NCBI GenBank assembly: GCA_021829145.1
Contig: JAJZOE010000060.1
Span: forward strand, 1-42,545
Reading direction: 5' to 3'
Source of the DNA: a bacterium
Lineage (GTDB): Bacteria > Patescibacteriota > Saccharimonadia > Saccharimonadales > UBA4665
DNA length: 42,545 bases
Positions 9,282 through 32,104 of the stretch are shown here, in pieces. Within the stretch, counting starts at the first letter, position 1. The number at the start of each line of letters is the position of its first letter. A program made the position numbers and the translations under genes. The notes under the pieces are model-generated. The model was not told the DNA's origin and did not search any database. It saw only the letters and a list, made by a program, of their open reading frames with translations.

Positions 9282-10463
9282 TTATTGCCATACCCTAACA
9301 TAATCTACCTTCATGGTAGACGGTACCGAAATCGGCCCGCCATTACTATTGTCCACGGCCAAATTTAGAACAAGAAACTGCGGAACGCTGGTTATGCCAG
9401 AATTAATTTGGCCGACTTCTGTTCCGTCATAATAGTAGGTTACTGACCCAGGCTGCCAATTGGCACCGTATGTATGCCATCCAGTATAATTGCTACTAAC
9501 ACAACCACCAGGGGCTCCGCTCGGGCTATGGAAATGGAAGCATGCCTGTCCTCCTAGACCTTCAACGACATCCAACTCCCCATCGGTGGGCCAATTTAAT
9601 CCCTGTCCGTCACTCCACCAGGCTGGCCAATTATATATGGTTCCGCTGCTATTGCCGGGAAGATAAATACTTGCTTGTATGAATCCATAAGTAAAGTCGA
9701 ATTTATTGTAACTATTGATCATTCCTGATGCATAAGGCCTTGCTGTGCCACCACAACTCTCCTGTTTCGCTACAACACTAAGATTTAAGTATCCCCCGCT
9801 AACACTTACCTGAGAAGGGTCATAACATTCTAACTCTTCAGAATTAACAGGCGGCGTAATTCCAGCGGCCAGCCAACCTGTACTCCATTTCGTGGTATCC
9901 AGAGATGATCCCGAGAACTCGTCATCAAATTTAAGTGTCCAATTTCCGCTAACTCCGTCGGGCATAGTAGAACTTGGTGGAGAACTTCCTGATCCACCAG
10001 TGTTTGTAGAGCCACTCGATCCACTGGTATCCCCAGCGACGCTGCTATTGCTATTTGTTTGACTTGTAGTGCTGGAGTTAGAAAGATTGCTGCTTGTCTT
10101 TGGCGCAGGAGCGGAGGATGTTGTTGATAGTGAATTATTCTGAGATGGGGCAATAGTAGGGCCGCTAGTTTTTGTAGTTAGATTGCTTTTATTATTGGAG
10201 ACTACCGGATTATTATTTTTTAGTTTAGGGATTTGCTTGTTTGTACTATTTAATCTTGTCGATGAGCCTGTTGCTAAGTAATGATATAGAGCAAGTCCGC
10301 TGCCACTAAGAATTATTAATAGAGCTGCAATAATTAATGGCGGCATAACTTTAAACGGTAGTTTATGTAAAGCATCTAAGACAGTAGGCGCTTGCATATG
10401 ACTGACGACAATTTGTGTTTCGTCAGGAACTATATCTCTAATAGGTTTTTGTTCTGCTAGCAT
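9282..10463 (-). CDS. Membrane-anchored GH16 beta-glucanase-like hydrolase
   Basis: Predicted endo-acting hydrolase of beta-1,3 or beta-1,3-1,4 glucans or related polysaccharides, facing outward. The GH16 active-site motif ExDxxE is intact as E296-L-D298-V-V-E301, inside a concanavalin-like domain (about 172-393) that ends in the typical KVDYVRVW strand. The N-terminal 40 residues are cytoplasmic, a transmembrane helix follows (about 41-62), and a Ser/Thr/Asn-rich linker (about 66-170) carries the enzyme away from the membrane. Four cysteines in the catalytic domain may form disulphides. The exact substrate cannot be decided from sequence. Its 3' end abuts tRNA-Phe, so its transcript could run antisense into the tRNA. 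Confidence 0.9.
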   Translation of the reverse strand: MLAEQKPIRDIVPDETQIVVSHMQAPTVLDALHKLPFKVMPPLIIAALLIILSGSGLALYHYLATGSSTRLNSTNKQIPKLKNNNPVVSNNKSNLTTKTSGPTIAPSQNNSLSTTSSAPAPKTSSNLSNSSTTSQTNSNSSVAGDTSGSSGSTNTGGSGSSPPSSTMPDGVSGNWTLKFDDEFSGSSLDTTKWSTGWLAAGITPPVNSEELECYDPSQVSVSGGYLNLSVVAKQESCGGTARPYASGMINSYNKFDFTYGFIQASIYLPGNSSGTIYNWPAWWSDGQGLNWPTDGELDVVEGLGGQACFHFHSPSGAPGGCVSSNYTGWHTYGANWQPGSVTYYYDGTEVGQINSGITSVPQFLVLNLAVDNSNGGPISVPSTMKVDYVRVWQ

Positions 10464-10556: not shown

Positions 10557-10633
10557 GCGGGTGTAGCTCAGCTGTTTAGAGCGCGTCCTTGCCAAGGACG
10601 AGGCCATGGGTTAGAATCCCATTACCCGCACCA
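10557..10633 (+). tRNA. tRNA-Gly (GCC) with altered elbow pair
   Basis: Acceptor GCGGGTG/TACCCGC, D-arm GCTC/GAGC, anticodon stem CGTCC/GGACG with loop TTGCCAA (anticodon GCC), T-stem ATGGG/CCCAT, discriminator A and encoded CCA. All stems pair. Two normally invariant bases differ: the D-loop AGCTGTTTA has T at position 19 instead of G, and the T-loop TTAGAAT has A at 56 instead of C. The two changes together would keep a Watson-Crick 19-56 pair as U-A. Confidence 0.93.
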
Positions 10634-10789: not shown

Positions 10790-11914
10790 ATGGCAGCTAT
10801 TCATACCGAGATACTTACTCATTCAACGGCAGAGTATTTGGCGAAAGAACATGACTTTTTAGCGCCAAATCTGGTTTTCTACATTCAAAAAGCCATAGAT
10901 TACCATGCAGGAAATGACACTGAGGGCTTCGTTACTCCATTACAGGCCGATGACGTAGCAGTTCATGCCGCAATGATTGTTGACGATGAGGTATCGGTAT
11001 TGCATGTGCACCCTGAATTCGCGCCTGCTTATCAAAGGGCGGATGAGGGTCAGATAAAGTCCGCTAGAGGCAGACGTAATCTTGATTACTTCCTGCACAA
11101 CGGACTAACGTATATATTCGACGAAAGTAAATTATCAGAATCAGATCAGCTATTAACTCCTGGTATGCCGATATCCCAGAGCCTCATGCGGTCTAAGATA
11201 GTTAACGTTAACGGCTTTGATGCTCGGATTAACTACATGTATCATGACGCGTTGGATCATCTCTGGTTCTTTGATTATGCAAGAAGGATTGGCCTAGCAT
11301 ATAAGTATTCAGATTTCTTTAACGCCACCGGCTATCCATTTGACGGTTTTCTGCTTAGCCGCCAAGCGGAACTTATTAGTGGTGTTGGATTTAGTGCCCG
11401 GCAATTTCTTGCAAACCCCGAGTACTATTCAACGATGGCGCTAGGCAAAGACACCATCACCGATCACATGTCCACCGCTGCCTATGACGAGAGAGTTGCA
11501 GAGGCTATTCAAAAGGTTGAACAAGATCCAAGGCTCGCCGTGTGGGCTGGTTTTGTGATTAAAGGGTCTACTGCTAATATTCTTAGCCAACGAAGGCGGT
11601 ACGGTGCAATCAAAGAGCTGGTCGTTGGGGATATTGGGCTGGCACAAACCGGCAAGATTATGTCATTACTCGACCCACGTTACTTGGCATTTATGATTGA
11701 TGCGCTAGATGCCTTCACTGCGAATAAAGCCGAGTATGCGGCCGTTCAACACGAGGTTAATCTAAAAATCGAGCTTGCACTACAGCGTTATATTCAGCGT
11801 CGGCAGAATCTTGGTAGCATTGTGCTGGGAGAAGATGCTGATCTTTCGGATATACCCTCAGAAATTGCCGATCGGCTCCGTAACGATGTGGGCTTGTCGA
11901 CTAACTACTACTAG
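10790..11914 (+). CDS. Unknown soluble protein of the sulfotransferase block
   Basis: A 374-residue protein without signal peptide or membrane helix. I do not recognise the family. Possible metal or acid-base residues include an HVHPE element (about 72-76), HDALDH (about 152-157) next to an aromatic run (LWFFDY), and HM near the middle. The C-terminal third is helical with an arginine-rich YIQRRQ stretch. It faces the sulfotransferase gene and overlaps its end by 14 bases. With the neighbours it could be an enzyme of the same pathway or an unrelated cargo gene. Codons look ordinary for the window and the frame is long and clean, so it is a real gene of unknown role. Confidence 0.7.
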   Translation: MAAIHTEILTHSTAEYLAKEHDFLAPNLVFYIQKAIDYHAGNDTEGFVTPLQADDVAVHAAMIVDDEVSVLHVHPEFAPAYQRADEGQIKSARGRRNLDYFLHNGLTYIFDESKLSESDQLLTPGMPISQSLMRSKIVNVNGFDARINYMYHDALDHLWFFDYARRIGLAYKYSDFFNATGYPFDGFLLSRQAELISGVGFSARQFLANPEYYSTMALGKDTITDHMSTAAYDERVAEAIQKVEQDPRLAVWAGFVIKGSTANILSQRRRYGAIKELVVGDIGLAQTGKIMSLLDPRYLAFMIDALDAFTANKAEYAAVQHEVNLKIELALQRYIQRRQNLGSIVLGEDADLSDIPSEIADRLRNDVGLSTNYY

Positions 11915-12698
11915 GAATGTACGCCGTCAGCTCAAGAATCGCCTTACTGGCAGCGGTACATGCTGATACCCTGTGGTCTATGAATTGGATGTCTCCGTCG
12001 CTCAAATACTCCTGATAACCACCAACTTCTCCGCGCCTAACCCTCAGCGCTTCTGGGTCAAGTCGGTCGTAATCATGCCCCGCGATACCATGCGCCATCT
12101 CAACTCGACGCATACGTTCAAAGGATGACGCCAAAACTACTGAGCTAATACGAGACGTGTCGACATTAATGCCAAGTACGTCAAGTACGTGCCCAAACTT
12201 CTCCTCGGTCTTGTCACGCATCGTCTCGTAAGACACGACTTGCTCGGTATTAAGGTGCGGCGACCAACTATCCAAATGCTCACAAAATGCATTTATGCCC
12301 AAGCCCAGGTTCGTTATGAATTCAGAGACACTTCCATTAAAGGTAGCTCGTTGGTGTTTATGATGTAACCAGTGCGAAACCATTACATCTCTGGGGTCTC
12401 TGGTTAAAAAAATCAGTCGGCTATCATCGAAGCGAGGCTCGTGACTAGCGTGACTCATGATAATTTTAGGCATGACGCGAGAGAAAGTAAAAGTTTGCTG
12501 GCCTGGTATTAACTCATTGGAATCATTTGGCACGACGCTGTAGATATTTGCGAGGGTGATATCCACATCGATGCCATAAACACCAGTAAGGTAGTTTGCA
12601 ATCATATAGCGCAGCCATGTCCTACCTGTTTTAGGGTAGCCACACACAAAGCGATCCCGCTCCTGACCTACGTTTACTGTGACAGGGGCGGTTGCCAC
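11901..12698 (-). CDS. PAPS-dependent sulfotransferase
   Basis: Transfers a sulfuryl group from 3'-phosphoadenylyl sulfate (PAPS) to a hydroxyl or amine. The 5'-phosphosulfate loop is YPKTGRTWLR (residues 21-30). A candidate catalytic histidine is His83 in MSHASH. The 3'-phosphate site is R100-DPRDVMVS108, and the C-terminal cofactor loop is RRGEVGG (221-227). Together these give the complete cytosolic-type sulfotransferase signature in 265 residues. It starts with GTG at 12698, which shares one base with the stop of the glycosyltransferase, so it is the last gene of a kinase-glycosyltransferase-sulfotransferase operon. The acceptor is probably the product of those genes. No PAPS-synthesis gene is in the window. 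Confidence 0.88.
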   Translation of the reverse strand: MATAPVTVNVGQERDRFVCGYPKTGRTWLRYMIANYLTGVYGIDVDITLANIYSVVPNDSNELIPGQQTFTFSRVMPKIIMSHASHEPRFDDSRLIFLTRDPRDVMVSHWLHHKHQRATFNGSVSEFITNLGLGINAFCEHLDSWSPHLNTEQVVSYETMRDKTEEKFGHVLDVLGINVDTSRISSVVLASSFERMRRVEMAHGIAGHDYDRLDPEALRVRRGEVGGYQEYLSDGDIQFIDHRVSACTAASKAILELTAYIPSSS

Positions 12699-13951
12699 TA
12701 TTTTGACCCTTTTAATGTATCATATGTATTCAAGAAGGGTGCAATGCACACGGGCCAATCATAATTCGCTGCGGTATATCGCCGTGCTTCGATAGCGCAC
12801 TTATCATCTACTGTTGACTTGCCAACTCTTTGGATAATCATTGGGTACTGTTCAATATCATTCTCAACAAATAAATGTTGGATAATGTTTGGGTCAAGCC
12901 CCTCAACGGCAATACTGGTTGCAATAACAGGTATGCCAGAAGCGAGATAGTCCAACACCTTCAGACGGGTGCCCGACCCTTCGAGCAGTGGAGCTAAGGC
13001 AATATCATAATCCAGCAGCTCCCCGCTCAAGTCGTCTACACCTCCTCTGAAAAGTATCCTGTCAGATGAGTACTTCTCAATAACCCCTGGAGGTGTAATG
13101 CCTATAACCGTCAATGTGTAACTGTCGTCAAGATTTGGCAGTATATGCTCGGCCATCACCCTGAGCGCATTCTCGTTTGGCTGATAGTACATGTGACCGA
13201 GAAACAAGAGCTTACTGCCAGTGCCCCTAAGCTGGAATTCAAAGTCATTAACGAAGATACCGCCACGGTATACCGCACTCCGTGCCGGGTCTGAGCCTTG
13301 TTCCAGGGCTAGTCCCATATCAACATCTGAACGGCACAGGACATAGTCGGCAAGTCTGAATGCAACTCTCTCAAACTCCAGAGCACGAGCTATATCTGGT
13401 TGTGGTGCACCGAGGCGTTCAAGTAAAACATGGTTAATATTCTGAACCTCAAGAATAAGTTTAACTCCCATATTTTTAAGACGTGGCCCAATATTCACGA
13501 GTAGCTCGGTGTCATAAAACTGAGCCATCTCCATGTTCGACTTGACGACTACACTTGTTAGCATGTCTGTTGGCTCGTAGAAGTCTTTGGGTGTCATGAA
13601 CACGCTACCAAACTTCTTATCGTAGTATTCTGTAAAATCATCCCAGCCTCGATAACAGTTAATAAGGATTGGATTTACGCTGCCGGATTCACCAAGTGCC
13701 CGCATAAGATTAGTTAATGTGTAGCAGGCACCGTTTCTGATTGGGTATATCGGCCCGTCAAAGAAGAAACCAACGTTAGTTTTGTCTTCCGATTTTAGTA
13801 AGGCCAGAGATTCTTGTGATATGGAATTGCTATAGGCTGCCACACTTAAACACTCCCCTGGGCTAATTGCGTTCATGAAGGTTGGTTCTGGAAATCCTTT
13901 TTTAACAATCTCAGTCAAATACTGGAACATGTGGTCTTGTTCTGGCTTCAT
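12698..13951 (-). CDS. GT4-like glycosyltransferase
   Basis: A 417-residue glycosyltransferase of the GT-B fold. The C-terminal nucleotide-sugar domain is recognisable: KLLFLGHM (about 242) with YYQPNENA, then the GT4 donor-site block PLLEGSGTRLKVLDYLASG (about 325-343), ending in PVIAT and a Glu-Gly-Leu turn. The N-terminal domain is the acceptor half and is divergent. It has no membrane segment, so it acts at the cytoplasmic side. Its start overlaps the kinase stop as ATGA and its stop overlaps the sulfotransferase start by one base, showing strict coupling. Donor and acceptor are not evident. Confidence 0.82.
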   Translation of the reverse strand: MKPEQDHMFQYLTEIVKKGFPEPTFMNAISPGECLSVAAYSNSISQESLALLKSEDKTNVGFFFDGPIYPIRNGACYTLTNLMRALGESGSVNPILINCYRGWDDFTEYYDKKFGSVFMTPKDFYEPTDMLTSVVVKSNMEMAQFYDTELLVNIGPRLKNMGVKLILEVQNINHVLLERLGAPQPDIARALEFERVAFRLADYVLCRSDVDMGLALEQGSDPARSAVYRGGIFVNDFEFQLRGTGSKLLFLGHMYYQPNENALRVMAEHILPNLDDSYTLTVIGITPPGVIEKYSSDRILFRGGVDDLSGELLDYDIALAPLLEGSGTRLKVLDYLASGIPVIATSIAVEGLDPNIIQHLFVENDIEQYPMIIQRVGKSTVDDKCAIEARRYTAANYDWPVCIAPFLNTYDTLKGSK

Positions 13952-14865
13952 GGAGCTACCTCATTAAAGCGATAGTGCGTTGCTAGACGTCTAACAATAT
14001 CAGCGTTCAGAGGCAGGTGCACAAGAGTCCTGTCATTGATTGCGTAGCCAACATAGTGAATTCCGTCTTCAGAATGACCCACATAAAATGTCTCGCCATC
14101 ATGCAGTACACCTGTATCTGGCATAGGGATTAAATTGAACCTTCTTATAAGGGGTACTGGCTTATCCACTTCTGGTACTTGCTCGTAATGCTCTGCGGGA
14201 CGTGAGGGGTTAGTTATAACTTGGTCAGCAAGTGCGGAATGTTCATTGCGATAGTGTTGCCATACCGGTTCATCCTTCGTTAGATAGCGCCCTACAATAT
14301 CATCAAGGTCGGTCCTTCGGTAATGTACAAAGGTTCTGACTATCTTACGTGTTATCCTGTCGTGCAGAGGTGTAGTTACAAGAATTCTGTAATCGGCAGT
14401 GTCGCGCAACTCGTCTCCAAACGCGTGTCCGCCCTCCAGAATTATGTAACGTCCAGGTATAAACTCTTCGCAACCAACTCGGTCTTTAGTGGTCTGGTCA
14501 AAAATTGGTACTTCTACCGGTTCGTTTTTCCTGAGTGCGCCTAGATGTTTTGTTAACAAATCTAGCTCCCACACCCTCGGGCTAATGCCTCCGATGTAAG
14601 GACGGTTCGGGTCTGGTGGCGTGTCATCAAAGTGAACTGTCATCTTACCCAGGCCAGCTATTAGATAAGAATCTATGGACAGGACTCTAGCGTCGGGTAG
14701 TCTTTCTGCTAAATAACTGGATAGGGTAGTCTTACCTGCCGCGGATACGCCGCCTACGTGAATTAGCTGCGGCATGTCTGCCGAACCGGCTTCCGTTTTA
14801 TCAAGTATGTCCGTGAGATTGATATAAGGATATGTGGTGTGGATTGGGATGTGTTGCTCGGCCAT
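13948..14865 (-). CDS. P-loop kinase of the uridine kinase / phosphoribulokinase type
   Basis: Probable ATP-dependent small-molecule kinase, 305 residues. The Walker A loop is GVSAAGKTT (39-47). Further family marks are an acidic SIDSY turn (about 63-67), the PRVWELDLLTKHL block (about 96-108) and PIFDQTTKDR (120-129), which corresponds to the YDFxxxxR element of uridine kinases. A C-terminal extension (about 215-305) is not part of the standard fold and looks like a separate small domain. It is the first gene of the three-gene operon and is divergent from the second P-loop gene across 68 bases. The substrate might be a nucleoside, a sugar or an amino-alcohol; the sequence does not tell. Confidence 0.72.
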   Translation of the reverse strand: MAEQHIPIHTTYPYINLTDILDKTEAGSADMPQLIHVGGVSAAGKTTLSSYLAERLPDARVLSIDSYLIAGLGKMTVHFDDTPPDPNRPYIGGISPRVWELDLLTKHLGALRKNEPVEVPIFDQTTKDRVGCEEFIPGRYIILEGGHAFGDELRDTADYRILVTTPLHDRITRKIVRTFVHYRRTDLDDIVGRYLTKDEPVWQHYRNEHSALADQVITNPSRPAEHYEQVPEVDKPVPLIRRFNLIPMPDTGVLHDGETFYVGHSEDGIHYVGYAINDRTLVHLPLNADIVRRLATHYRFNEVAP

Positions 14866-14933
14866 ATTATAGATGAATAGTTAATGCGTAGCATTTATGA
14901 TACTATCCTTATTACAACAAGATAATTGTATTT

Positions 14934-15608
14934 ATGCAAATCCATAGCCTAGAAGGCCATAGCTTTAGCGGCAAAACTACCATGGCTGGTGCCTTAGTGA
15001 AAGATCCGTCGGTAGAACTGATAAGTGGTTATACTCTCTATTCTCGAAAGTTAGGTGTGACGCCTCCGCTAGGACTACCTCACAGCCTCGAAGAAGCAAG
15101 GCGTTGCTTTGACTATTTCCTTGGACTTGAATACCACAGGTCACAAGATTCCGTAAAGGCTGCCACCCTGGGACGTAAGGTATTGCAGGACAAGTCAGTT
15201 ATCTCACTATATGCATACCAGCGCGCACGGTACGTCTATGATTCTCAGCCCACTGAGGTCACTGTTCCTGATTATGCGTTAGAACGTGTTCACGAAGCAA
15301 TAAGAAGGGGTAATGTAATTCTGCCTAGTACAATTGGCGTTATGGCATGTGCAACCAAGCAGGTATACGACGCCCGGAAAGACAGGCGGGGTCCAGTTAA
15401 ACAAAATGCCGTTTTTAACGATTGGCGGTTTTCGCAGCTGCTTACCGACGTTACTCTTGAGTCGGCCCTTTTGTTTGTGGGTGATGACAACCGGATTATG
15501 AAGTATGAGTCAACCGACGAAACATCAAATTTTGCCGAGATTTATGGTGACTTGACAGGGCGGATAGGAATCGCGTCACACTACGACAGTAATATTGACC
15601 GTATCTGA
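14934..15608 (+). CDS. P-loop nucleotide kinase-like protein
   Basis: A 224-residue protein with Walker A GHSFSGKTT (8-16) right at its N-terminus and a layout resembling thymidylate or deoxynucleoside kinases, with conserved-looking RARYVYD (about 98-104) and a lid-like arginine cluster near 150-155 (ARKDRRG). The family is not certain; it could also be an adenylylsulfate-kinase-like enzyme, which would be striking next to a PAPS-dependent sulfotransferase, but no diagnostic motif confirms that. It is divergent from the kinase operon, sharing its upstream region, and its end overlaps the convergent HAD gene by 28 bases. Confidence 0.6.
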   Translation: MQIHSLEGHSFSGKTTMAGALVKDPSVELISGYTLYSRKLGVTPPLGLPHSLEEARRCFDYFLGLEYHRSQDSVKAATLGRKVLQDKSVISLYAYQRARYVYDSQPTEVTVPDYALERVHEAIRRGNVILPSTIGVMACATKQVYDARKDRRGPVKQNAVFNDWRFSQLLTDVTLESALLFVGDDNRIMKYESTDETSNFAEIYGDLTGRIGIASHYDSNIDRI

Positions 15609-16186
15609 TTCGCAGAGCTCAGACTATCGTTGGTATCAAACAAATGGGTTTGCCACCTCTTTTCGGCGGCGACCGGCATATTTTTGTCGGTATCGTCAAT
15701 CAGAAATAGAGCAGCGCCCTCATCGGCCAGCCTTGATTCCAACAGGGCATAGAAAGCGGGGTCGGGCTTGCGCAGACCTTCTTTTGACGAGTCGACAATG
15801 TGCGTGAATAGGTCAATTTCTTTGGGTAGTAGTTTCTTATCTGTCTCGTCTTCCAGTCCAAGCCAAGAGTTCGTAAAAATAGCCAATTTATAACCGGCAG
15901 CGTGGAGTTCGGATGCTAGCTTTAAAGAATCTTGTATCCAGAAGTCCGTGCTACGCCAACTGCGGATGGCTTCAAGCGGGTCGTATGACTTGCCTAAATC
16001 GGTCAGAATCTGCTTCCAGCCGTCCTCTGGGCTCATAAGTCCAATGTTCATTTTTGGGGCATATGAAAACATGGTCTCAAGTAGTAGACTGTGTTCTACA
16101 CCGAGCTTCTTTGCAAGAGCGGCTGAGCTGCGCTCCCAGTCAAGTAATACGCCTCCTACATCAAATACAATCCATTGCGGTTTCAT
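15581..16186 (-). CDS. HAD-superfamily phosphatase-like hydrolase
   Basis: A 201-residue HAD hydrolase. Motif I is FDVGGVLLDW with nucleophile Asp9; the usual second Asp is Gly, as in YihX-type members. Motif II is TNS (105-107), motif III is Lys140 in a RKPDP element, and motif IV is IDD (163-165). A helical cap lies between motifs I and II. Such enzymes hydrolyse phosphate esters of sugars or nucleotides. It ends inside the convergent P-loop gene (28-base overlap) and closes the accessory block, so it may dephosphorylate an intermediate of that pathway, but it could be a general housekeeping phosphatase. Confidence 0.83.
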   Translation of the reverse strand: MKPQWIVFDVGGVLLDWERSSAALAKKLGVEHSLLLETMFSYAPKMNIGLMSPEDGWKQILTDLGKSYDPLEAIRSWRSTDFWIQDSLKLASELHAAGYKLAIFTNSWLGLEDETDKKLLPKEIDLFTHIVDSSKEGLRKPDPAFYALLESRLADEGAALFLIDDTDKNMPVAAEKRWQTHLFDTNDSLSSANQIRSILLS

Positions 16187-16797
16187 GGGAGCAATAATAC
16201 AGGAAGCGGGTATGTCGCGCTAGGCGTGTGCAAGTCTCGGTCCTTACTTAAGATACTCCTAGAAGACATAAAGTACTGGGACAAAATACCGGTAAAGTAA
16301 TTTTTGAACGCGAGGGCAATGAAGCAATTTATCATGACCTACTAAAAGATATTTATATTCCAGGCAATCCAGCTAAACTACTTGGGAGAAGCAAAATATG
16401 TGGGTCAATTCACTTACTCGTAACGGCATAAAACTTGCCCGAAAAATTCTCCCCTAGTATAACCTAGCTATCTCTATATCTCGAGAAAAACCGATAATAC
16501 TGTTATGACATTCCATTCTAAATACGACCGATAGGGGGCACCACATGTACAGATGCAGAGGCCAAAGGTAGACTTCTTATATTTTAATTTGCAATTACCT
16601 CTTAATAATCTTTAAAGTCTAGTTACTATTATTGATGTAAAACTACTGTATTTCCAAGAACCGTAGGCCCTCTATATTGTCTAAATCTATCCCATATTTT
16701 TTAAAAATTTTTGTACTATTCCTGCCTTGTTGTATTTTAAGATAACATATAGTTAAATAATTAGCATAAGCTTTGTGAGAGCAAGTGAAACCAAAAG
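16187..16797. other. 610-base gap with possible gene remnants
   Basis: No convincing complete gene is present. One open stretch without a start, 16252-16431 on the plus strand, encodes a protein-like sequence containing VIFERE and IPGNPAKLLG; the latter resembles the C-terminus of hexapeptide acetyltransferases, but the match is short. A minus-strand frame at 16643-16831 (62 codons) ends in a helical, charged sequence and overlaps the start of the LamG gene; it could be another remnant or chance. The rest is AT-rich. Confidence 0.4.
16252..16431 (+). pseudogene. Possible decayed coding fragment
   Basis: A stop-to-stop open stretch of about 60 codons with natural-looking composition but no usable start codon. 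The tail KDIYIPGNPAKLLGR recalls the closing motif of left-handed beta-helix acyl/acetyltransferases. It lies just outside the sulfotransferase block. Low confidence, because the similarity is short and no second motif is visible. Confidence 0.22.
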
Positions 16798-19704
16798 ATG
16801 AATAAAAGGTGTAATAATTTAGGCTATTCAAAAAGGACCGTGAGTATTGTTACCGTACTGTTGCTACTGGCTAGTGCAATCTATTTACCATGGCTTACGG
16901 CAACGGTATATGCTGTTCCGCTAGGCAGCTTGGCGGGATATTGGAAGCTGGACGAAACGACGGCCGGATCGACCGCAATCGACTCGTCAGGTAATGGCAA
17001 TAACCTTACGCCGAGCGGTAACCCTCAGCCTTCTACAAACGTGCCGCCCAATATTAGCTTTCCAGACAGTAGAAGCCTTGCGTTCAACGGATCTAATACT
17101 TTAGACGAAGCAAACCCTATAGGCGTTAATTATGGCAGCTCTCCTCGCACTATATCAGCTTGGATTTATCCTACCGCAGCGCCGACTTCCGGGTCGGCCG
17201 TCCCTGCGGCTTACGGCCAATGCGCCTACAACAATGTAAGCACGAACACTGGCATGGAGTTTGGTTTCTTTCTTGATTCTTCTATGGACTTGCATTTTTG
17301 GGGATGCGGCAGCAACTACGACTTTGACACTGGCCATATTGTTCCCCTCAACCAATGGTCTAACGTTACGGTTACATATGACGGAACAACAGTTAATGTA
17401 TATCTAAACAGTATAGATGTAGGCGCACAGCCCAGGACATTAGTAAATCAGGGAAGCTCAACGCCACAAATGGAAATCGGCAGCGCCAGTCTGATGGACG
17501 GCAATACCGACAATTTTACCGGCAACGTTGATGATGTAAGGGTTTATACCAGGGCTCTTTCATCTAGTGAGGTTTCTGAACTATATAACACCGGCAACAC
17601 CAGCGCTACCTGGACGGGATCAAGCTCTAACCTGTGGAACAGTTCAGCTAACTGGGATATTAATGCTATACCTGATCCATTTACGGATATCACTATAGAT
17701 AACGGCAGCTACCAGCCGCAGCTTCCTACATCAGTAGGAGTAGCAAAATTAACGATCAACTCCGGAGCATCACTTAACCTTGAAGGCTATAACTTAACCA
17801 TGAACGATCAAGGAAGTTTCACTAACTACGGAACGCTGATACTACAAGGCGGAGAAACAATAACTGGAGTTGCAAATGATACATCAAACGGTGTCATAGA
17901 ATACGACGGCAGTGGCACATACTCGTCTCTCAGTATGGGTAGTGTATACAATAATCTTTTGTTTGATGGAACTGGATCTTGGTCGCTAAATAGTGATGCG
18001 AATATTTCTAAAAATCTAACCATAACAAACGGTACATTATCGGCAGGTACGTACAATTTAACAGTTGGCGGTAACTGGACTAATAACGCTACATTTAACT
18101 CGGGCAACGGAACGGTCAGTTTATCTGGTGCTGGCCAAACCATATCTGGCTCAACTACTTTTTATAATTTATCTAAATTAGTTTCTAGCGCCGACACCTT
18201 AACGTTTGCTGCCGGCAGCACCCAAACTATTACAAATGATCTTTCCTTAAGAGGATCACCCGGCAACTTGCTGTCGCTAAGAAGCTCTATTGGTGGCACG
18301 CAGTGGAATATAGACCCTCAATCCGGCATAAACCTAAGCTACTTGGATGTTAAGGATTCTAATAATTCGGGTAGTACTTTGCTTAATCCGAGCAATAGTA
18401 CTGATAGCGGCAACAACTACAATTGGTTCGCGCCGTATAAGCCAACGTCATTAGGACCTGCCTCCAATGTAAATGACGGCTTCATAGCCACTTCAACGCC
18501 ATCACTAACGTTTAGCTTGAGTAACTCAGATAGTAGCAGCAGTGTAGGCTATCAAATCGAGGTAGCAGACAACAGTAGTTTTACCAATCCCACGGTAGAC
18601 TACGAGTCAACCCAAGGGCCACAGGGTAGCTATAGTTTTACTGTTGGTCAGTTAGCTGGTTCTGGCACCTATATCAGCGGCAATAGCGGCCAAACCCTAC
18701 CTGATGGCAAATATTATTGGCGGGTTCAGACAATTGATCCGCTAGGCAACATGTCGGGTTATGTTAGTGCAAATTCCGGCAATACAGCTTTTAGTGTTGA
18801 TACTACCGCCCCAACAGTACCGGGGGTACCATCAACTATCTCTCCGACAAACTCTACTAGTCCTACATGGTCTTGGACTGCATCTACCGACACCGGTAGT
18901 GGTCTGTCTAACACGCCCTACACAATCGAATGGTCCCAAAGCTCCAATTTTTCTAGTGGAGTTTCATCTACTACCAGTCAAAGTAATTCTATAGTTCTTC
19001 CAGTAAGTCTCACGCCTGGAATCTGGTATGTTAGAGTCAAAGCCACAGACGCCGTAGGCAACGTTTCGGCATATTCTTCTAGCGGATCGGTGACGATTAA
19101 AGCGTCATCTCAAGCATCTCCTACTACACAAGCTAAAGATCAAGATGGTGATTATGATAATGACATCCGGTCAACAAGCTCTAATTCTTCCACGGCGGCC
19201 AAAAAAGACAATACAAATACAACCTCAAGTTCTACTAATCAAAACACCACTAGTATTAAGTCAAGCCAATCTATATTGCTAAATACCTATAATCAATACA
19301 CCAATGGTTCGGGCAAACAGTTGAATCTTAACGCTAATCAAGTAGTATACTTCAAGGTTGACACTACGACGCATAGCATAACCGTTAATAAAGTCGGCGG
19401 AGACTATGTTACATTAACTCTTCGCTCAACACCAAGGACCGTCACTATCCAAACCGGTGACACCGACGAATACGACGTAAACGGTGACGGCAAGCCAGAC
19501 ATTAAAATTACACTCCTAGGTACGCGCAATGGGATAGCATTGCTTTCGTTCGCACAAGTAAAGAGTCCTAGCGTAAAGATTAACCTATCAAGCTCCGCTC
19601 AAACTTCCTATAGCTATGCATGGATAATAATACTGCTAATCGGCATAGTTATTGGTATGTGGGTTATGTGGCGAAGGCATCGCAAACAAAACATTCAAAA
19701 CTAG
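16798..19704 (+). CDS. Large LamG-domain surface protein with C-terminal anchor
   Basis: A 968-residue exported protein, likely a glycan-binding surface adhesin. It has a signal peptide (about 12-40, ending near VYAVPLG). A LamG/concanavalin-like domain (about 42-265) runs from AGYWKLDE to the typical VDDVRVYTRALSSSEV close. Next comes a repeat-rich beta region (about 270-530) opening with WTGSSSNLWNSSANW. Two fibronectin- or Ig-like modules follow (about 550-665 and 675-765), then a Ser/Thr-rich linker with Asp-rich calcium-type turns (DQDGDYDND; DVNGDGKPD). A transmembrane helix (about 938-957) and a basic tail WRRHRK complete the cell-anchor pattern. It is followed by 443 non-coding bases and the DUF2142 gene on the same strand. 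No catalytic motif is visible. Confidence 0.82.
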   Translation: MNKRCNNLGYSKRTVSIVTVLLLLASAIYLPWLTATVYAVPLGSLAGYWKLDETTAGSTAIDSSGNGNNLTPSGNPQPSTNVPPNISFPDSRSLAFNGSNTLDEANPIGVNYGSSPRTISAWIYPTAAPTSGSAVPAAYGQCAYNNVSTNTGMEFGFFLDSSMDLHFWGCGSNYDFDTGHIVPLNQWSNVTVTYDGTTVNVYLNSIDVGAQPRTLVNQGSSTPQMEIGSASLMDGNTDNFTGNVDDVRVYTRALSSSEVSELYNTGNTSATWTGSSSNLWNSSANWDINAIPDPFTDITIDNGSYQPQLPTSVGVAKLTINSGASLNLEGYNLTMNDQGSFTNYGTLILQGGETITGVANDTSNGVIEYDGSGTYSSLSMGSVYNNLLFDGTGSWSLNSDANISKNLTITNGTLSAGTYNLTVGGNWTNNATFNSGNGTVSLSGAGQTISGSTTFYNLSKLVSSADTLTFAAGSTQTITNDLSLRGSPGNLLSLRSSIGGTQWNIDPQSGINLSYLDVKDSNNSGSTLLNPSNSTDSGNNYNWFAPYKPTSLGPASNVNDGFIATSTPSLTFSLSNSDSSSSVGYQIEVADNSSFTNPTVDYESTQGPQGSYSFTVGQLAGSGTYISGNSGQTLPDGKYYWRVQTIDPLGNMSGYVSANSGNTAFSVDTTAPTVPGVPSTISPTNSTSPTWSWTASTDTGSGLSNTPYTIEWSQSSNFSSGVSSTTSQSNSIVLPVSLTPGIWYVRVKATDAVGNVSAYSSSGSVTIKASSQASPTTQAKDQDGDYDNDIRSTSSNSSTAAKKDNTNTTSSSTNQNTTSIKSSQSILLNTYNQYTNGSGKQLNLNANQVVYFKVDTTTHSITVNKVGGDYVTLTLRSTPRTVTIQTGDTDEYDVNGDGKPDIKITLLGTRNGIALLSFAQVKSPSVKINLSSSAQTSYSYAWIIILLIGIVIGMWVMWRRHRKQNIQN

Positions 19705-21572: not shown

Positions 21573-21669
21573 CCTGGCTACATATAATTAGACTATAATT
21601 TATGGTTAACTATTGGTGATTAAAGCTATCAAATATAAATATGTGATTAAATATAAAACTTACTTGACG

Positions 21670-23745
21670 ATGCGATTGGCTAAATGTTTAGCATTTATAA
21701 AGTCAGCAAGCTGGCATACCAAGTTATCTATTAGCTTAGTTATCGTTATTTTTGCTTTATTTGTTTCATTTGTTTTAGGGGATGTCTCACAGGCTACCAA
21801 TATAAGTTTAAACGGCAATAATCCCGGTATGTTATTCCAGGGAGTAGGCGCAATTTCCGGCGGTAGTGGGGCTTCCAGGTTATTAATCGACTATCCCAAA
21901 CCTGAAAGAAATCAAATTTTAGACTATTTATTTAAACCTGACTATGGGGCTGATTTACAATTACTTAAGATCGAAATTGGTGGCGACAGCGGAACTACTG
22001 ACGGGGCGGAACCATCCATTGAGCATAATCAAGGACAAATCAATTGTAGTTCGGGGTATGAATGGTGGATTGCCAAACAAGCAGTAAATCGTAATCCGGC
22101 TATTAAGCTTTATGGGCTACAATGGTCGGCACCTGGGTGGGTGGGGAACGGTCAAAATACTATTTGGACCAAAAAGGATGTCAATTACGTTATCGATTGG
22201 ATGAATTGTGCCAGGTCACATGGACTTAATATTAGCTATATCGGAGGCTGGGACGAGGAAGGTTATAATGCCAATTGGTACGAATTACTAAGGAGTGCTT
22301 TAAACAATAATGGCTATGCTAATACAGAAATTGTTGCTTCTGATGACGTATCGACCCCATGGGGTGTAGCCGATGCATTATTAAGAAATCCTAAATTTAA
22401 AAAAGCAGTATCTGTTATAGGAGTCCATGATACATGCCCTGCTAACCCCACCACAGGGTACAGCTGCTATTCGTACCCAACAGCTACCAGGCTTAATCTA
22501 CCCTTATGGGAAAGTGAGCTTGGAGGCATGTCAGCTAATTATGGAGCGGCTGCAATGGCCCGATCTGTTATTAATGGTTATAACCAAGCAAAAATTACTG
22601 GTTATCTTGAGTGGCCATTAATCGATGCAATATCTCCAGGCCTTCCTTTCGAAAAGAGGGGCCTTATCACCGCGGATCAGCCATGGTCCGGGTACTATAA
22701 AGTCAATTTAATGACCTGGGCTATTGCCCAGACTGCTCAGTTTACTGCTCCGGGATGGAGCTATATTAATGTGGCTAACAATAAAATAGGTAATAGCGGA
22801 GCCTATACTGCATATGAATCGCCAAGCCATAAGTCGTGGACACTAGTAGTCGAGAATACCGGAGCCTACAACGGCCAGAACGTAAGCAAACAAACCATTC
22901 ATGTTAAGCTAGCTAATCTACCGGACAGCGTTATACGTGTTTGGGAAACTAACCTATGGGTTCATAACCCCAACCAGTGGTTTAATCGTATGAGTGACAT
23001 CCATCCCCTAAACGGTAAATTCAGCTATACCATAAAGCCGGGTATGGAAGTTAGCTTTACTAATACCAACGGCCAGTCTAAAGGGATGACTTCACCGCCC
23101 AGCGCCCATCCCTTATCGTTACCATATTCAAATTCCTTATCACTTAATGACGGAAGTGACGAGCCTTCGTTATTGACACCTCAAGATGGTTCATTTGAGC
23201 TTATGCCTTGCTTGGGGGATGTAATGGGATTATGCACGCAGCAGATGACCTCTCAGATTCCAGTTCATTGGAATAATACCAATGGCAAAAACAGCTACCC
23301 GTTTGCGGTTATAGGCGATAACTGGACTAATTATCAGGTAAGTGTCAATATCTTGTTCCAGCATACTAACAGCTCTGGAGGCGTTATCGGACGCTTTAGC
23401 AAACGCGCAGGAGACATAGGTAACTTTGATGGCTACATGTTACAGCTTAGCGAAAATGGTGTTTGGCAAATCCTTAAGAATAAAAATTCCAACCTTCCTG
23501 TTAAGCCAATAGTTCTCGCTTCTGGTTCTCTAGGAGAAATGGGTATAGATCGATGGCACGCAGTGACATTGACTATGAAGGGTAGTCAATTAACGGCGCT
23601 GATTGATGGAAAAGTAGTAAGTTCCACTTCTGATACTTCATATTCATCAGGACCAGCTGGAATAGTAGCCGATGCTTTTAGTAGTATCTGGTCAAACAAT
23701 CAATATCGAGATTTTAAGGTTATGCCCATGAGCTCTGGACCATAA
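21670..23745 (+). CDS. GH59 galactocerebrosidase-like glycoside hydrolase
   Basis: A near full-length GH59 (galactosylceramidase) homologue of 691 residues. The N-terminal signal anchor (about 15-40) is followed by the GH59 opening GVGAISGG, the LFKPDYGADLQLLKIEIGG block, and the acid/base Glu196 in the WDEEGYNAN motif (WNERSYN in the human enzyme). The nucleophile is Glu283 in the LWESELGG block. The C-terminal part keeps the GALC beta-sandwich and lectin-like domain (IGDNWTNY, GGVIGRF). GH59 enzymes release galactose from beta-galactosides such as galactolipids; the bacterial substrate may be different. ATG at 21670 is chosen over upstream TTG/GTG starts because the signal anchor then sits at the N-terminus. 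Assignment from recalled human sequence; not run. Confidence 0.88.
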   Translation: MRLAKCLAFIKSASWHTKLSISLVIVIFALFVSFVLGDVSQATNISLNGNNPGMLFQGVGAISGGSGASRLLIDYPKPERNQILDYLFKPDYGADLQLLKIEIGGDSGTTDGAEPSIEHNQGQINCSSGYEWWIAKQAVNRNPAIKLYGLQWSAPGWVGNGQNTIWTKKDVNYVIDWMNCARSHGLNISYIGGWDEEGYNANWYELLRSALNNNGYANTEIVASDDVSTPWGVADALLRNPKFKKAVSVIGVHDTCPANPTTGYSCYSYPTATRLNLPLWESELGGMSANYGAAAMARSVINGYNQAKITGYLEWPLIDAISPGLPFEKRGLITADQPWSGYYKVNLMTWAIAQTAQFTAPGWSYINVANNKIGNSGAYTAYESPSHKSWTLVVENTGAYNGQNVSKQTIHVKLANLPDSVIRVWETNLWVHNPNQWFNRMSDIHPLNGKFSYTIKPGMEVSFTNTNGQSKGMTSPPSAHPLSLPYSNSLSLNDGSDEPSLLTPQDGSFELMPCLGDVMGLCTQQMTSQIPVHWNNTNGKNSYPFAVIGDNWTNYQVSVNILFQHTNSSGGVIGRFSKRAGDIGNFDGYMLQLSENGVWQILKNKNSNLPVKPIVLASGSLGEMGIDRWHAVTLTMKGSQLTALIDGKVVSSTSDTSYSSGPAGIVADAFSSIWSNNQYRDFKVMPMSSGP

Positions 23746-27464: not shown

Positions 27465-29185
27465 TTATAATCCTAATCCACGACTATTTTTATTGGTCGG
27501 ATGTATTATTACCGGTGTATAGGTAACAGAACTCTGGTTAATATGGTGAGCTACACGTCTTCTTAGTATAACCCTAGTCCAATATGTAAAAATAGCTGCT
27601 CCTGCTAGTAGTATAGAAACTCCGATCACATATTTAACATTATTGGCGCTGGTTAATTTACCCCAAAAAGACTTATGATCAACTGTTATTATTTGGCTCT
27701 TTGTAGTAGTATGTCCTCCACTGTTGATCGTTTGGGTTATGACATATTTGCCATCGGGTAACTTATTGGTATTGACCGGACCTCTCGAGGACTTTCCGTT
27801 GACTGAATAAGTAACTGTATTAGTAGGTGAGGTGGTTGGATTTGGTGGGTTTTGCACACTTGAAGAACCGGTTGTACTAGAAGGAGAAGAAGTAGGCGAT
27901 GGAGTAGGTGATCCGCCACTTAGTGGTGGGTTTGTAGGAGGGGGGCTTGAGCCTGAACCAGAGCCGCTAGTTGTTTGTGGTGCCGAATAGGCCAGATCTT
28001 TTAATGCAGTATATGCGGGCAATAGTGTATAAGTCAGACTATTAACGTCATATGTATTGCCGTCAATAATGCAGTAATAGTTTTGGGTACTACTGCCACT
28101 ATCAGTGCAATCAGCTTCATACCAATAAAGCCTGGCTACATTAGGCAATGTGGCAGCATCATTAACGATTCTGTTAGATACGTTGCTTGTAATGAAGGCG
28201 ATATTCCTCCTCCGGCGGTATAAGTATTGTAGCCAGTTTCAGTAATCCACACTGGCTTATTTCCATCACCGTACTGTTGCATAATTGGGTATATGTTATT
28301 TTTCCAAGTCGCGGCTAGTGTACCGGGGTCGATGATATTTCTACTTGCAGCTGTTCCATTATAGGCGCACCAATTATCACTAGGTGGATCACAGTAGTAA
28401 TGTTGGGAAAGAACATCGAAATAATTCTTAGCTCCTTGCTGGTACATAGTTTTTAAGAATATCTGGTTATTTCCGTCTGTACCAGATAAAGATCCGCCTA
28501 ATATGGTAACTGATGGATCAATTGATTTAGCGGTGGTATAAGCGCTTTTTAGTAATGTCGTATAGTCTATCGCATTGTCTATATCATAGTTTGGATAAGT
28601 TGTTTCGGTATATTGCCAGGACCAACCGCCGACTGGCTCGTTCCATATTTCATACTCATTAACTTTTCCTGCCCAACGCTTCATCATATAGGACAAAAAA
28701 TTATCGTAATCTGAGACACCGTTATATGGAGTACAGTTAGTTTTAGTGGGATCACAAGAAGAACCGATTATCGTTCTTAGGGGTGGCTCGGTGCTAGGGG
28801 ATGGATCGCCACTGGGAGCTCCAGTAACCCATGTTGGCGCCGATGTAATGATCGCTAGTGGATCCATACCATTGGCGTCTAGCTCGTTTACTGCATTATC
28901 TAATCGTGATAAATAGGTCTGGCTATATGAGCCTTGGGTAGGTTCAATAAAATACCATGGAACATCGAACCTGACAGATTTTACCCCAGCAGCCTTAAAT
29001 AGGCTTATCTCTTGATCCTGGACGGTAGAATTAATCCATATTGGATGCCAGTTAAGGCCGTAAAAATTTGCCGATACTGAAGCTGACACTCTGGGAGTTA
29101 CTTGTAAATGATCAATCGGAAGTATATATGTGCCAATAAAGACGCACATTAATACCGGCTTTCTGTTCGTACCAGGTTTGATCAA
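27465..29185 (-). pseudogene. Frameshifted, IS-truncated clan-A glycoside hydrolase (GH39/GH5-like)
   Basis: Two frames together encode one protein. The upstream frame (28136-29185) carries the catalytic domain with acid/base Glu183 in EIWNEP and nucleophile Glu316 in WITETGY, both intact. The downstream frame (27465-28148) carries the last strand (RLYWYEAD), a Ser/Pro/Thr-rich linker, a stalk domain, a transmembrane helix (about 169-188 of that frame) and a basic tail. They join only by a -1 shift (one missing base) near 28160-28175, where no slippery heptamer is seen. The first 25 residues of the upstream frame overlap the transposase 3' end, so the original N-terminus has probably been replaced. 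Likely a broken, once membrane-anchored polysaccharide hydrolase. Confidence 0.75.
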
Positions 29186-30242: not shown

Positions 30243-31214
30243 TTGGCAGCTATTTATTGGTTTTGTTCAGACGAGCAGTATCAGCCTGAAGAGATTGTGG
30301 AACATGCCATAGCAGCGGAAAAGGCTGGCTTTGATGGCATCATGATTTCGGAGCATTTTCATCCATGGGTAGCAGATAAAAGTGCTTCCGGATTTGCTTT
30401 TACCACCCTAGGCGCTATTGCTGCTAAAACTAAAAAAATAAATCTGATGACAGCGGTCACTACACCGCTTTTCAGGTTTCATCCGGCTATTATTGCCCAA
30501 GCGGCAGCCACTGTCGACCGATTAAGTGGCGGTCGTTTTGAACTCGGCATAGGTACTGGTGAAAATATAAACGAAGGTCCACTTGGATTTCGTTTGCCAC
30601 CATATAAAGAGAGGCAAGAAAGAATTGCTGAGGCTTACCAGATTATTAGCCGTTTAATAGCTGGAGAAAAGTTAGACTTTGCTGGTAAGTACTACCAGAC
30701 TAAAGCTGCAAAATTATATAGCCCTCCTGTTCACAAAGTACCTATTATTCTTGCGGCCGGCGGACCACAGACTGCAGCAACAGTTATGCAGGGATACGAT
30801 GGTGTAATGGTTAGCGCTAAGAATATTACCGAATCCTGGGAAAATGTTATAAAACCAGCCAAAGAAGCCAAACAGGATATTAGTGTCGTAGCTGTCCGTT
30901 GGTCGTTATATGCCGCTACAGAGGAAGAGGCTTGGCAAGCAATACAGTCACAAAGAGGTTTACGAGCTCCAAGTCGAGGCGAGGCTATTGATCCGGAAGT
31001 ATTGCAAGCTGAAGTAGACGCTATGCCTCACAGTGAGACATTGGCAAGATACGAATTAGTAGCTAATAACGAAGACTACTTTAACACCTATGCACCGTTA
31101 ATAGGTCAACTGAAAGCTAGTGTGGTTGGTATTCAGACTGCCTCAGTCGATCCATTTGCAACAATTAAAATGCTTGGCCAGGAAGTTCTGCCAAGACTAA
31201 GAAAGCTAAATTAA
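30243..31214 (+). CDS. F420-dependent LLM-class oxidoreductase (G6PDH-like family)
   Basis: A 323-residue TIM-barrel flavin/F420 oxidoreductase of the luciferase-like superfamily. It carries the marks of the F420-dependent glucose-6-phosphate dehydrogenase type: SEHFHPW (about 36-42), FHPAIIAQAAATVDRLSGGRF (about 80-100) with GIGTGENINE (about 103-112), and a YSPP then AAGGPQ block (about 160-180). It would transfer hydride between cofactor F420 and an unknown substrate. It starts with TTG at 30243, behind an almost ideal AAAGGAGG at 4-6 bases, one of the strongest ribosome sites in the window. The second LLM gene begins 11 bases after its stop, also with a strong AAAGGAGG. Confidence 0.85.
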   Translation: MAAIYWFCSDEQYQPEEIVEHAIAAEKAGFDGIMISEHFHPWVADKSASGFAFTTLGAIAAKTKKINLMTAVTTPLFRFHPAIIAQAAATVDRLSGGRFELGIGTGENINEGPLGFRLPPYKERQERIAEAYQIISRLIAGEKLDFAGKYYQTKAAKLYSPPVHKVPIILAAGGPQTAATVMQGYDGVMVSAKNITESWENVIKPAKEAKQDISVVAVRWSLYAATEEEAWQAIQSQRGLRAPSRGEAIDPEVLQAEVDAMPHSETLARYELVANNEDYFNTYAPLIGQLKASVVGIQTASVDPFATIKMLGQEVLPRLRKLN

Positions 31215-31225
31215 AGGAGGGAAGA

Positions 31226-32104
31226 ATGAAAGTAGGATTGCAAATTAACCGGTTTGATTATCCTGGCGGAGATCCTAGAATAGGTGAAAATATTAGAGTA
31301 ATTGCAAAAGCCAGTGAAGACGTAGGGTTTGATAGCTTGTGGGTAATGGACCATTTTTTTCAAATAGGACATATTGGTCCATATACAGATCCTATGCTGG
31401 AGGCCTATACGACGCTTGGGTTTCTAGCGGGAATAACATCTAAGGTTCAACTTGGCACTATGGTTACTGGGGTCATCTACCGAGAACCGGCTGTTTTAAT
31501 AAAAGCAGTTACTAGCCTAGATGTTGTTTCCGGGGGACGGGCCTATTTTGGAATTGGTGCTGGTTGGAATGATCAGGAAGCTAAAGCCTTAGGCTTAACG
31601 GACCCACTTAATGCTAGGAGGTTTACTAGGCTAGAAGACACTCTCAAATTAGCATTACAGATGTGGGAAGGTAATAGTAAACCATTTAAGGGTGAGATAT
31701 ATAATCTACCGGAACCATATATGAATCCACAGTCAGTTTCCCGACCACATCCACCTATTCTTATTGGCGGCGGAGGTGAAGAGAAAACCTTACGTTTTGT
31801 AGCTCAATATGGCGATGCCTGCAATTTGTTCGCCAGTGATCTAGCACAACTTAAGCACAAGCTTGAAGTTCTAAAAAAACATTGCCAAGAAATAGGCAGA
31901 AACTATGACGAAATTGAGAAGACTTCACTGGCTGGAGTTCAGTTAACTGAGGCTGCTAATAATATTGCTGATCAAAAGAAACGGGTGGAAGAGCTTAAAA
32001 GCTTGGGTATAGACCACATAATATACGCAGTCAGTAACGATGCCGAACGTGCTTCTTACGAAATGTTTGCTGAATGCATTGATTACATTCACGACTTGAA
32101 TTAA
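31226..32104 (+). CDS. F420-dependent LLM-class oxidoreductase
   Basis: A 292-residue member of a different LLM subgroup. Motifs: GFDSLWVMDHFFQI (about 33-46), LGTMVTGVIYREPAVLIKAVTSLDVVSGGRA (about 72-103) and FGIGAGWNDQEAKALGL (about 105-121), and PPILIGGGGE near 175-184. This pattern is typical of F420-dependent oxidoreductases rather than true luciferases. A strong AAAGGAGGG lies just before the ATG. It is co-transcribed with the gene 11 bases upstream and shares only weak identity with it, so the pair is not a recent tandem duplication. Substrate unknown; no F420-synthesis gene is in the window. Confidence 0.86.
   Translation: MKVGLQINRFDYPGGDPRIGENIRVIAKASEDVGFDSLWVMDHFFQIGHIGPYTDPMLEAYTTLGFLAGITSKVQLGTMVTGVIYREPAVLIKAVTSLDVVSGGRAYFGIGAGWNDQEAKALGLTDPLNARRFTRLEDTLKLALQMWEGNSKPFKGEIYNLPEPYMNPQSVSRPHPPILIGGGGEEKTLRFVAQYGDACNLFASDLAQLKHKLEVLKKHCQEIGRNYDEIEKTSLAGVQLTEAANNIADQKKRVEELKSLGIDHIIYAVSNDAERASYEMFAECIDYIHDLN

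Follow-up and report, generated by a model that had tools for sequence, protein, structure and literature searches.

What role could a sulfotransferase of the type that uses 3′-phosphoadenosine 5′-phosphosulfate (PAPS) have in the reduced genome of a member of the candidate phyla radiation (CPR), and do the genes packed around it form one system? These questions are raised by a block of six genes at positions 10790–16186 of a 42,545-nucleotide stretch of DNA (hereafter the window), which is the entire contig C67 (JAJZOE010000060.1) of the metagenome-assembled genome GCA_021829145.1 (924 kb, 75 contigs, 73% complete). The initial annotation, made from the sequence alone, guessed at a CPR genome, rightly so, since the relatives of this genome place it in the Saccharimonadales; it also read five or six genes of the block as a single system. 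We favour, with moderate confidence, a different explanation: the block would be a small cargo acquired into a variable region, at the end nearest tRNA-Gly, and three of its genes, encoding a kinase, a glycosyltransferase, and the sulfotransferase, would form an operon whose products attach sugar and sulfate to an acceptor that is secreted or on the cell surface.

Candidate kinase–glycosyltransferase–sulfotransferase operon

All six open reading frames (ORFs) of the block are intact and lie where the initial annotation had placed them. The stop codon of the kinase gene and the start codon of the glycosyltransferase gene share the sequence ATGA, and in the sequence TAGTG the glycosyltransferase stop codon and the GTG start of the sulfotransferase gene have one base in common. 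These overlaps, noted initially and confirmed here, speak for joint translation and support the earlier proposal that the three genes are one operon. Two further overlaps are convergent, one of 14 bases between the gene of a 374-residue protein and the sulfotransferase gene, and one of 28 bases between the ORFs of a 224-residue and a 201-residue protein.

The sulfotransferase scores 67.6 bits against PF00685 (cut-off 22) over residues 14–242 and retains the motifs YPKTGRTW, LTRDPRDVMVSH, and RRGEVGG, together with the histidine of MSH. Both cofactor motifs align with those of the PDB relatives TEG12 and human SULTs; the 5′ phosphosulfate and 3′ phosphate motifs YPKTGRTW and RDPRDVMVSH correspond to SYPKAGNTW and RNPRDMLLSS of TEG12. 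The Pfam match and the motif alignment therefore support its original designation as a PAPS-type enzyme with intact cofactor motifs. Its best plasmid relatives are rhizobial (about 37% identity); no match was found in the order sample (148 genomes besides this one), and no relative that would point to a viral origin appeared in the IMG/VR scan or in phage records. Closer relatives may exist in other phyla, because the single scan of named genomes used the 374-residue family as query and covered that family only. A protein of the same Sulfotransfer_1 family from an exopolysaccharide cluster of Sinorhizobium medicae (WQO69361.1) shows about 37% identity over 91% of the protein, and relatives of the window sulfotransferase lie beside GT4 genes in this cluster. 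Unlike the rhizobial clusters, the three-gene operon of the window includes no genes for polysaccharide export, sugar nucleotides, or PAPS.

The nucleotide-sugar binding domain of the glycosyltransferase (PF13692, 52.7 bits versus a cut-off of 27) assigns it to GT-B group 1 (GT4-like). Its score against TIGR03087, the XrtA/PEP-CTERM equivalog, is 71 bits (1e-19) versus a cut-off of 316.65, and the kinase reaches 70.6 versus 180 bits for the NCBIfam uridine kinase equivalog and 60.6 versus 220.3 for udk; since these scores are far below the cut-offs, neither TIGR03087 nor uridine kinase fits as an annotation name. The kinase shares its P-loop core with the uridine kinase/phosphoribulokinase family and aligns with the Thermus uridine kinase (7.6e-13) over residues 28–218 only. 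In this alignment the nucleoside-side segment YDFRAHTR is replaced by FDQTTKDR, which, from knowledge of the family, makes a substrate other than that of uridine kinase likely. Both proteins had only distant partial matches in the order sample; the best plasmid matches were from haloarchaea and Bacteroidales for the glycosyltransferase, and from Firmicutes and others for the kinase.

Two proteins of the order (L020:6276–7487 and L021:1232–2410), 26–28% identical to the window kinase, carry an N-terminal CYTH-like domain (weak CYTH match) fused to a uridine-kinase-like domain; in plant TTM1 the CYTH and kinase domains stand in the reverse order. Unlike such fusions, the window kinase has no CYTH domain, and its C-terminal 85 residues (approximately residues 220–305) found no match among the loci compared.

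Acquisition at a variable region behind tRNA-Gly

Genes for tRNAs can be integration hotspots for serine or tyrosine integrases. The order ligA, tRNA-Ala, tRNA-Phe, and tRNA-Gly is kept in four genomes of the same genus, and the sequence after tRNA-Gly varies. From tRNA-Gly to the tRNA-Cys/tRNA-Leu pair, the region extends over 31.5 kb in the window; its length is about 32.5 kb in G617, and in G092 it covers about 9.9 kb. In differing in size and content among the related genomes and being bounded by the tRNA, it resembles a tRNA-associated genomic island. Its distal half in the window (24.4–41.8 kb) is largely common to G617, and a GH59 gene is common to G112. The block genes were not found in the fetched parts of this region in G112, G621, G092, and G617. 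In G112, a large serine integrase gene (L055:2987–4483; phrog_95, 4.7e-64; Pfam Resolvase and Recombinase) ends inside tRNA-Gly. In composition, the six block genes (GC content 0.45–0.48, codon adaptation index 0.66–0.71) stand apart from 20 other genes of the same contig (0.39–0.45 and 0.71–0.79; Mann–Whitney P = 0.0003 and 0.0004, respectively). The compositional contrast, the absence from relatives, and the integrase of G112 together suggest that the block is cargo that this hotspot has acquired.

With variable sequence right after tRNA-Gly and an integrase there in G112, the locus resembles known tRNA-gene hotspots and supports the earlier view of tRNA-Gly as an integration side; the window copy differs from such hotspots in having neither an integrase next to tRNA-Gly nor an attachment (att) repeat. 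No second copy of the tRNA-Gly 3′ end was found in the window, in agreement with the initial annotation, and for this reason we infer the mode of entry rather than observe it. A remnant integrase at 16187–16797 was considered and rejected, as none of the six frames contains a long open frame.

PAPS supply and sulfotransferases in Patescibacteria

That no PAPS synthesis is visible, first stated for the window, can be extended to the 73%-complete genome, in which neither ATP sulfurylase nor a convincing APS kinase (APS, adenosine 5′-phosphosulfate) was found; two Pfam matches to APS kinase (34 and 24 bits) were rejected, as their ORFs resemble P-loop proteins of a generic kind. The sulfotransferase itself had been called unexpected in a CPR genome. 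It is uncommon rather than anomalous or unprecedented: Sulfotransfer_1 occurs in 15 of the 380 Patescibacteria genomes of a phylum-wide sample, the window's genome included. An APS-kinase match of at least 68 bits was present in 7 of the 14 other sulfotransferase genomes and in none of 20 genomes without a sulfotransferase (Fisher P = 0.0006), all 20 belonging to one order, so that the contrast is not lineage-matched.

In G450 the sulfotransferase gene adjoins a CysD-like gene and a CysN–APS-kinase fusion. A Saccharimonadales surface-glycan cluster (G054, contig C12, L118:3475–10360) encodes a bifunctional ATP sulfurylase–APS kinase, an inositol-monophosphatase-family (CysQ-like) protein, and a Sulfotransfer_1 protein within 7 kb, and is apparently a PAPS and sulfation set. 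Other inspected patescibacterial sulfotransferases sit among genes for glycosyltransferases and sugar-nucleotide enzymes. The clusters of G054 and G317 (contig C42, L104) resemble the window block in combining Sulfotransfer_1 with glycosyltransferases in a reduced genome, and in G317 a glycosyltransferase gene directly precedes the sulfotransferase, as in the window. The window block differs from the G054 cluster in lacking the bifunctional enzyme and having a kinase instead. A supposed glycosyltransferase–sulfotransferase fusion in G408 (L110:11302–14436) was rejected, as Pfam recognised a pair of glycosyltransferase domains in it, and no sulfotransferase domain passed the threshold. Among the papers searched, none pairs sulfotransferases with the candidate phyla radiation; those pairing sulfotransferases with Saccharibacteria look incidental by title.

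Alternative explanations

The six genes had been interpreted as one biosynthetic system for a phosphorylated, glycosylated, and sulfated small molecule, which we now regard as improbable. Tight packing, overlapping ORFs, and a composition common to all six genes speak for it. So do G109, a genome of the window's family, in which a kinase of the phosphoribulokinase (PRK) type and a HAD–NUDIX protein are encoded about 1.2 kb apart beside a SIS-domain gene, and two genomes of sister genera (G054 and G065), where a gene of the 374-residue family lies within 5 kb of genes for a P-loop kinase and a Sulfotransfer_5-like protein, a combination with a loose resemblance to the block. However, homology of the G054 kinase and sulfotransferase-like protein to the window proteins was rejected, none being detectable by BLASTP; the six window genes are split between the two strands into at least four transcription units; and no locus with more than two of them was found by tblastn against the fetched neighbourhoods and by searches of the order, the HAD and 224-residue proteins not being searched genome-wide. 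The full set, expected to stay together in a co-inherited system, was together in no relative examined, and the best plasmid matches of the block proteins come from unrelated lineages. Genes that are not neighbours in relatives and have unrelated best matches are largely what was found for the six-gene set; the operon, whose ORFs overlap, is not called into question in this way. The glycosyltransferase–sulfotransferase pair is a recurrent arrangement, and its recurrence, like that of the kinase–HAD pair of G109, appears weak: in G317, a member of another patescibacterial family, a glycosyltransferase gene (29% identity to that of the window over 93 amino acids) ends 25 bases before two sulfotransferase genes of the same strand. 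The two Sulfotransfer_1 genes of this locus (L104:5433–8342) are in tandem behind the glycosyltransferase gene, all on one strand.

In the explanation that we favour, acquired cargo with a sugar- and sulfate-transferring operon, the kinase would phosphorylate a small precursor, either a sugar or a nucleoside-like compound. The GT-B enzyme would glycosylate an acceptor that is secreted or on the cell surface, and the product would receive sulfate from PAPS through the sulfotransferase. PAPS could be provided by genes missing from the incomplete assembly or by a host cell. The 374-residue protein, the 224-residue P-loop protein, and the phosphatase would be neighbours in the cargo, not proven partners of the trio. 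Several points weigh against this explanation: no PAPS synthesis was found in the incomplete genome, so that activity of the sulfotransferase is presumed; the trio has no flippase, polymerase, or sugar-nucleotide pathway genes next to it; the kinase does not keep the HTR segment of uridine kinases; the window has no att repeat; and the contrasts in composition and in APS kinase occurrence were drawn within one contig and against one order, respectively. A narrower form of the same explanation, possible at a fairly low probability, is that the trio decorates the cell's own envelope and provides strain-variable surface chemistry, for example against phages or for host-cell attachment. The glycosyltransferase and sulfotransferase genes are strain-specific and hotspot-borne, their relatives occur in surface-glycan contexts, and genes for glycan-active proteins abound in the window (GH16, GH59, GH5, and a LamG protein), but the acceptor is presumed and the block has no PADLOC match; an anti-phage defence system was rejected, since PADLOC gave only insignificant matches for the block proteins. 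It is rather unlikely that these are passenger genes, with a sulfotransferase lacking PAPS supply in the genome and kept by chance after recent acquisition. That no ATP sulfurylase and no convincing APS kinase were found in the incomplete genome would agree with this, as would the absence of about 95 N-terminal family residues from the 374-residue protein, but the six intact ORFs, overlapping starts and stops, and conserved catalytic motifs argue against it.

The HDxxDH family

The most novel part of the block is the 374-residue protein, an N-terminally shortened member of an undescribed helical family. It lacks about 95 N-terminal residues of this family, has no plasmid match, and no viral relative of the family was found in the IMG/VR scan. 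In a set of 393 genomes, six other Saccharimonadales encode relatives with 19–28% identity, and a further relative occurs in one Dependentiae genome; none beyond the window's genome was seen in the phylum-wide sample of 380. The family alignment has 25 invariant columns, including the HDxxDH motif (H152, D153, D156, H157) as well as R191, E194, R204, R269, and K275. Judging by the motif, one helix may carry a metal site. AlphaFold, applied in answer to the initial call for a structure prediction, gave a mostly helical model (mean pLDDT 75 for a full-length relative; pLDDT 68 for the window protein), with an alignment seven sequences deep; Foldseek found no match below E 0.1 for either model in the PDB or among viral models.

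In four Saccharimonadales genomes from three families, the HDxxDH gene is the third of a cassette also encoding a GreA-C-like protein, an AAA_17 P-loop kinase, and, after it, a CYTH protein. Each member is homologous across the loci, and the GreA-C match is below the Pfam cut-off. The Dependentiae copy (L024:9707–11737) keeps a CYTH-related neighbour. In G054 and G065, the neighbours are a TauD-like oxygenase, a DUF4202/HD protein, a nucleotidyltransferase-like protein, a P-loop kinase, and a Sulfotransfer_5-like protein. None of the papers searched pairs the CYTH domain with Saccharibacteria. One could tentatively hypothesise that this is a new helical, probably metal-binding family with a fold not represented in the PDB, whose cassette with adenylate/dephospho-CoA-kinase-like P-loop, GreA-C-like, and CYTH proteins would point to action on a phosphorylated nucleotide or polyphosphate metabolite, and that the window copy, having left the cassette, now moves together with an operon for sugar and sulfate transfer.

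Other features of the window

The features of the block and the cassette loci are listed in Table 1. The HAD-type protein matches TIGR02247 below its cut-off (1.8e-17), and its best plasmid matches are actinobacterial; the 224-residue protein has a weak match to the thymidylate kinase phrog_761 (E 0.088) and no plasmid match.

Table 1. Features of the block with the adjacent tRNA gene, and loci of the HDxxDH cassette
Feature	Position	Strand	Remark
tRNA-Gly(GCC)	10557–10633	+	ARAGORN; marks the variable region; 156 bases between its end and the 374-residue ORF
374-residue protein	10790–11914	+	N-terminally shortened HDxxDH-family member; no Pfam, NCBIfam, or PHROG match
PAPS-type sulfotransferase, 265 residues	11901–12698	-	GTG start; PF00685, 1.4e-18
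GT4/GT-B type glycosyltransferase, 417 residues	12698–13951	-	PF13692, 7.3e-14; C-terminal half like TIGR03087
Uridine kinase/phosphoribulokinase-fold kinase, 305 residues	13948–14865	-	PF00485, 3.5e-11
224-residue orphan protein	14934–15608	+	P-loop GHSFSGKTT; no Pfam match
HAD-type phosphatase, 201 residues	15581–16186	-	PF00702, 4.8e-8
HDxxDH cassette	L018:6013–9255		Saccharimonadales
HDxxDH cassette	L019:5197–8173		Saccharimonadales
HDxxDH cassette	L028:8265–11469		Saccharimonadales
HDxxDH cassette	L038:1866–5068		Saccharimonadales

Glycan-active proteins are encoded in or beside the variable region (GH16, 9282–10463; LamG-type, 16798–19704; GH5, 28136–29185), which suggests glycan-active cargo. 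A GH59 galactocerebrosidase-like protein with its lectin domain is encoded at 21613–23745 (Pfam 3e-102), and the copy in the corresponding variable region of G112 is 62% identical. Two adjacent luciferase-like monooxygenases at 30243–32104 have 64–74% identity to their G617 counterparts.

Significance

Very small Saccharimonadales appear to gain genes for sugar and sulfate transfer at a tRNA hotspot, and PAPS synthase–sulfotransferase clusters occur in some of their relatives. Together, these findings make it a testable idea that such bacteria have sulfated surface glycans. As a source of new biochemistry, the HDxxDH family and its cassette would be a better target than the trio.

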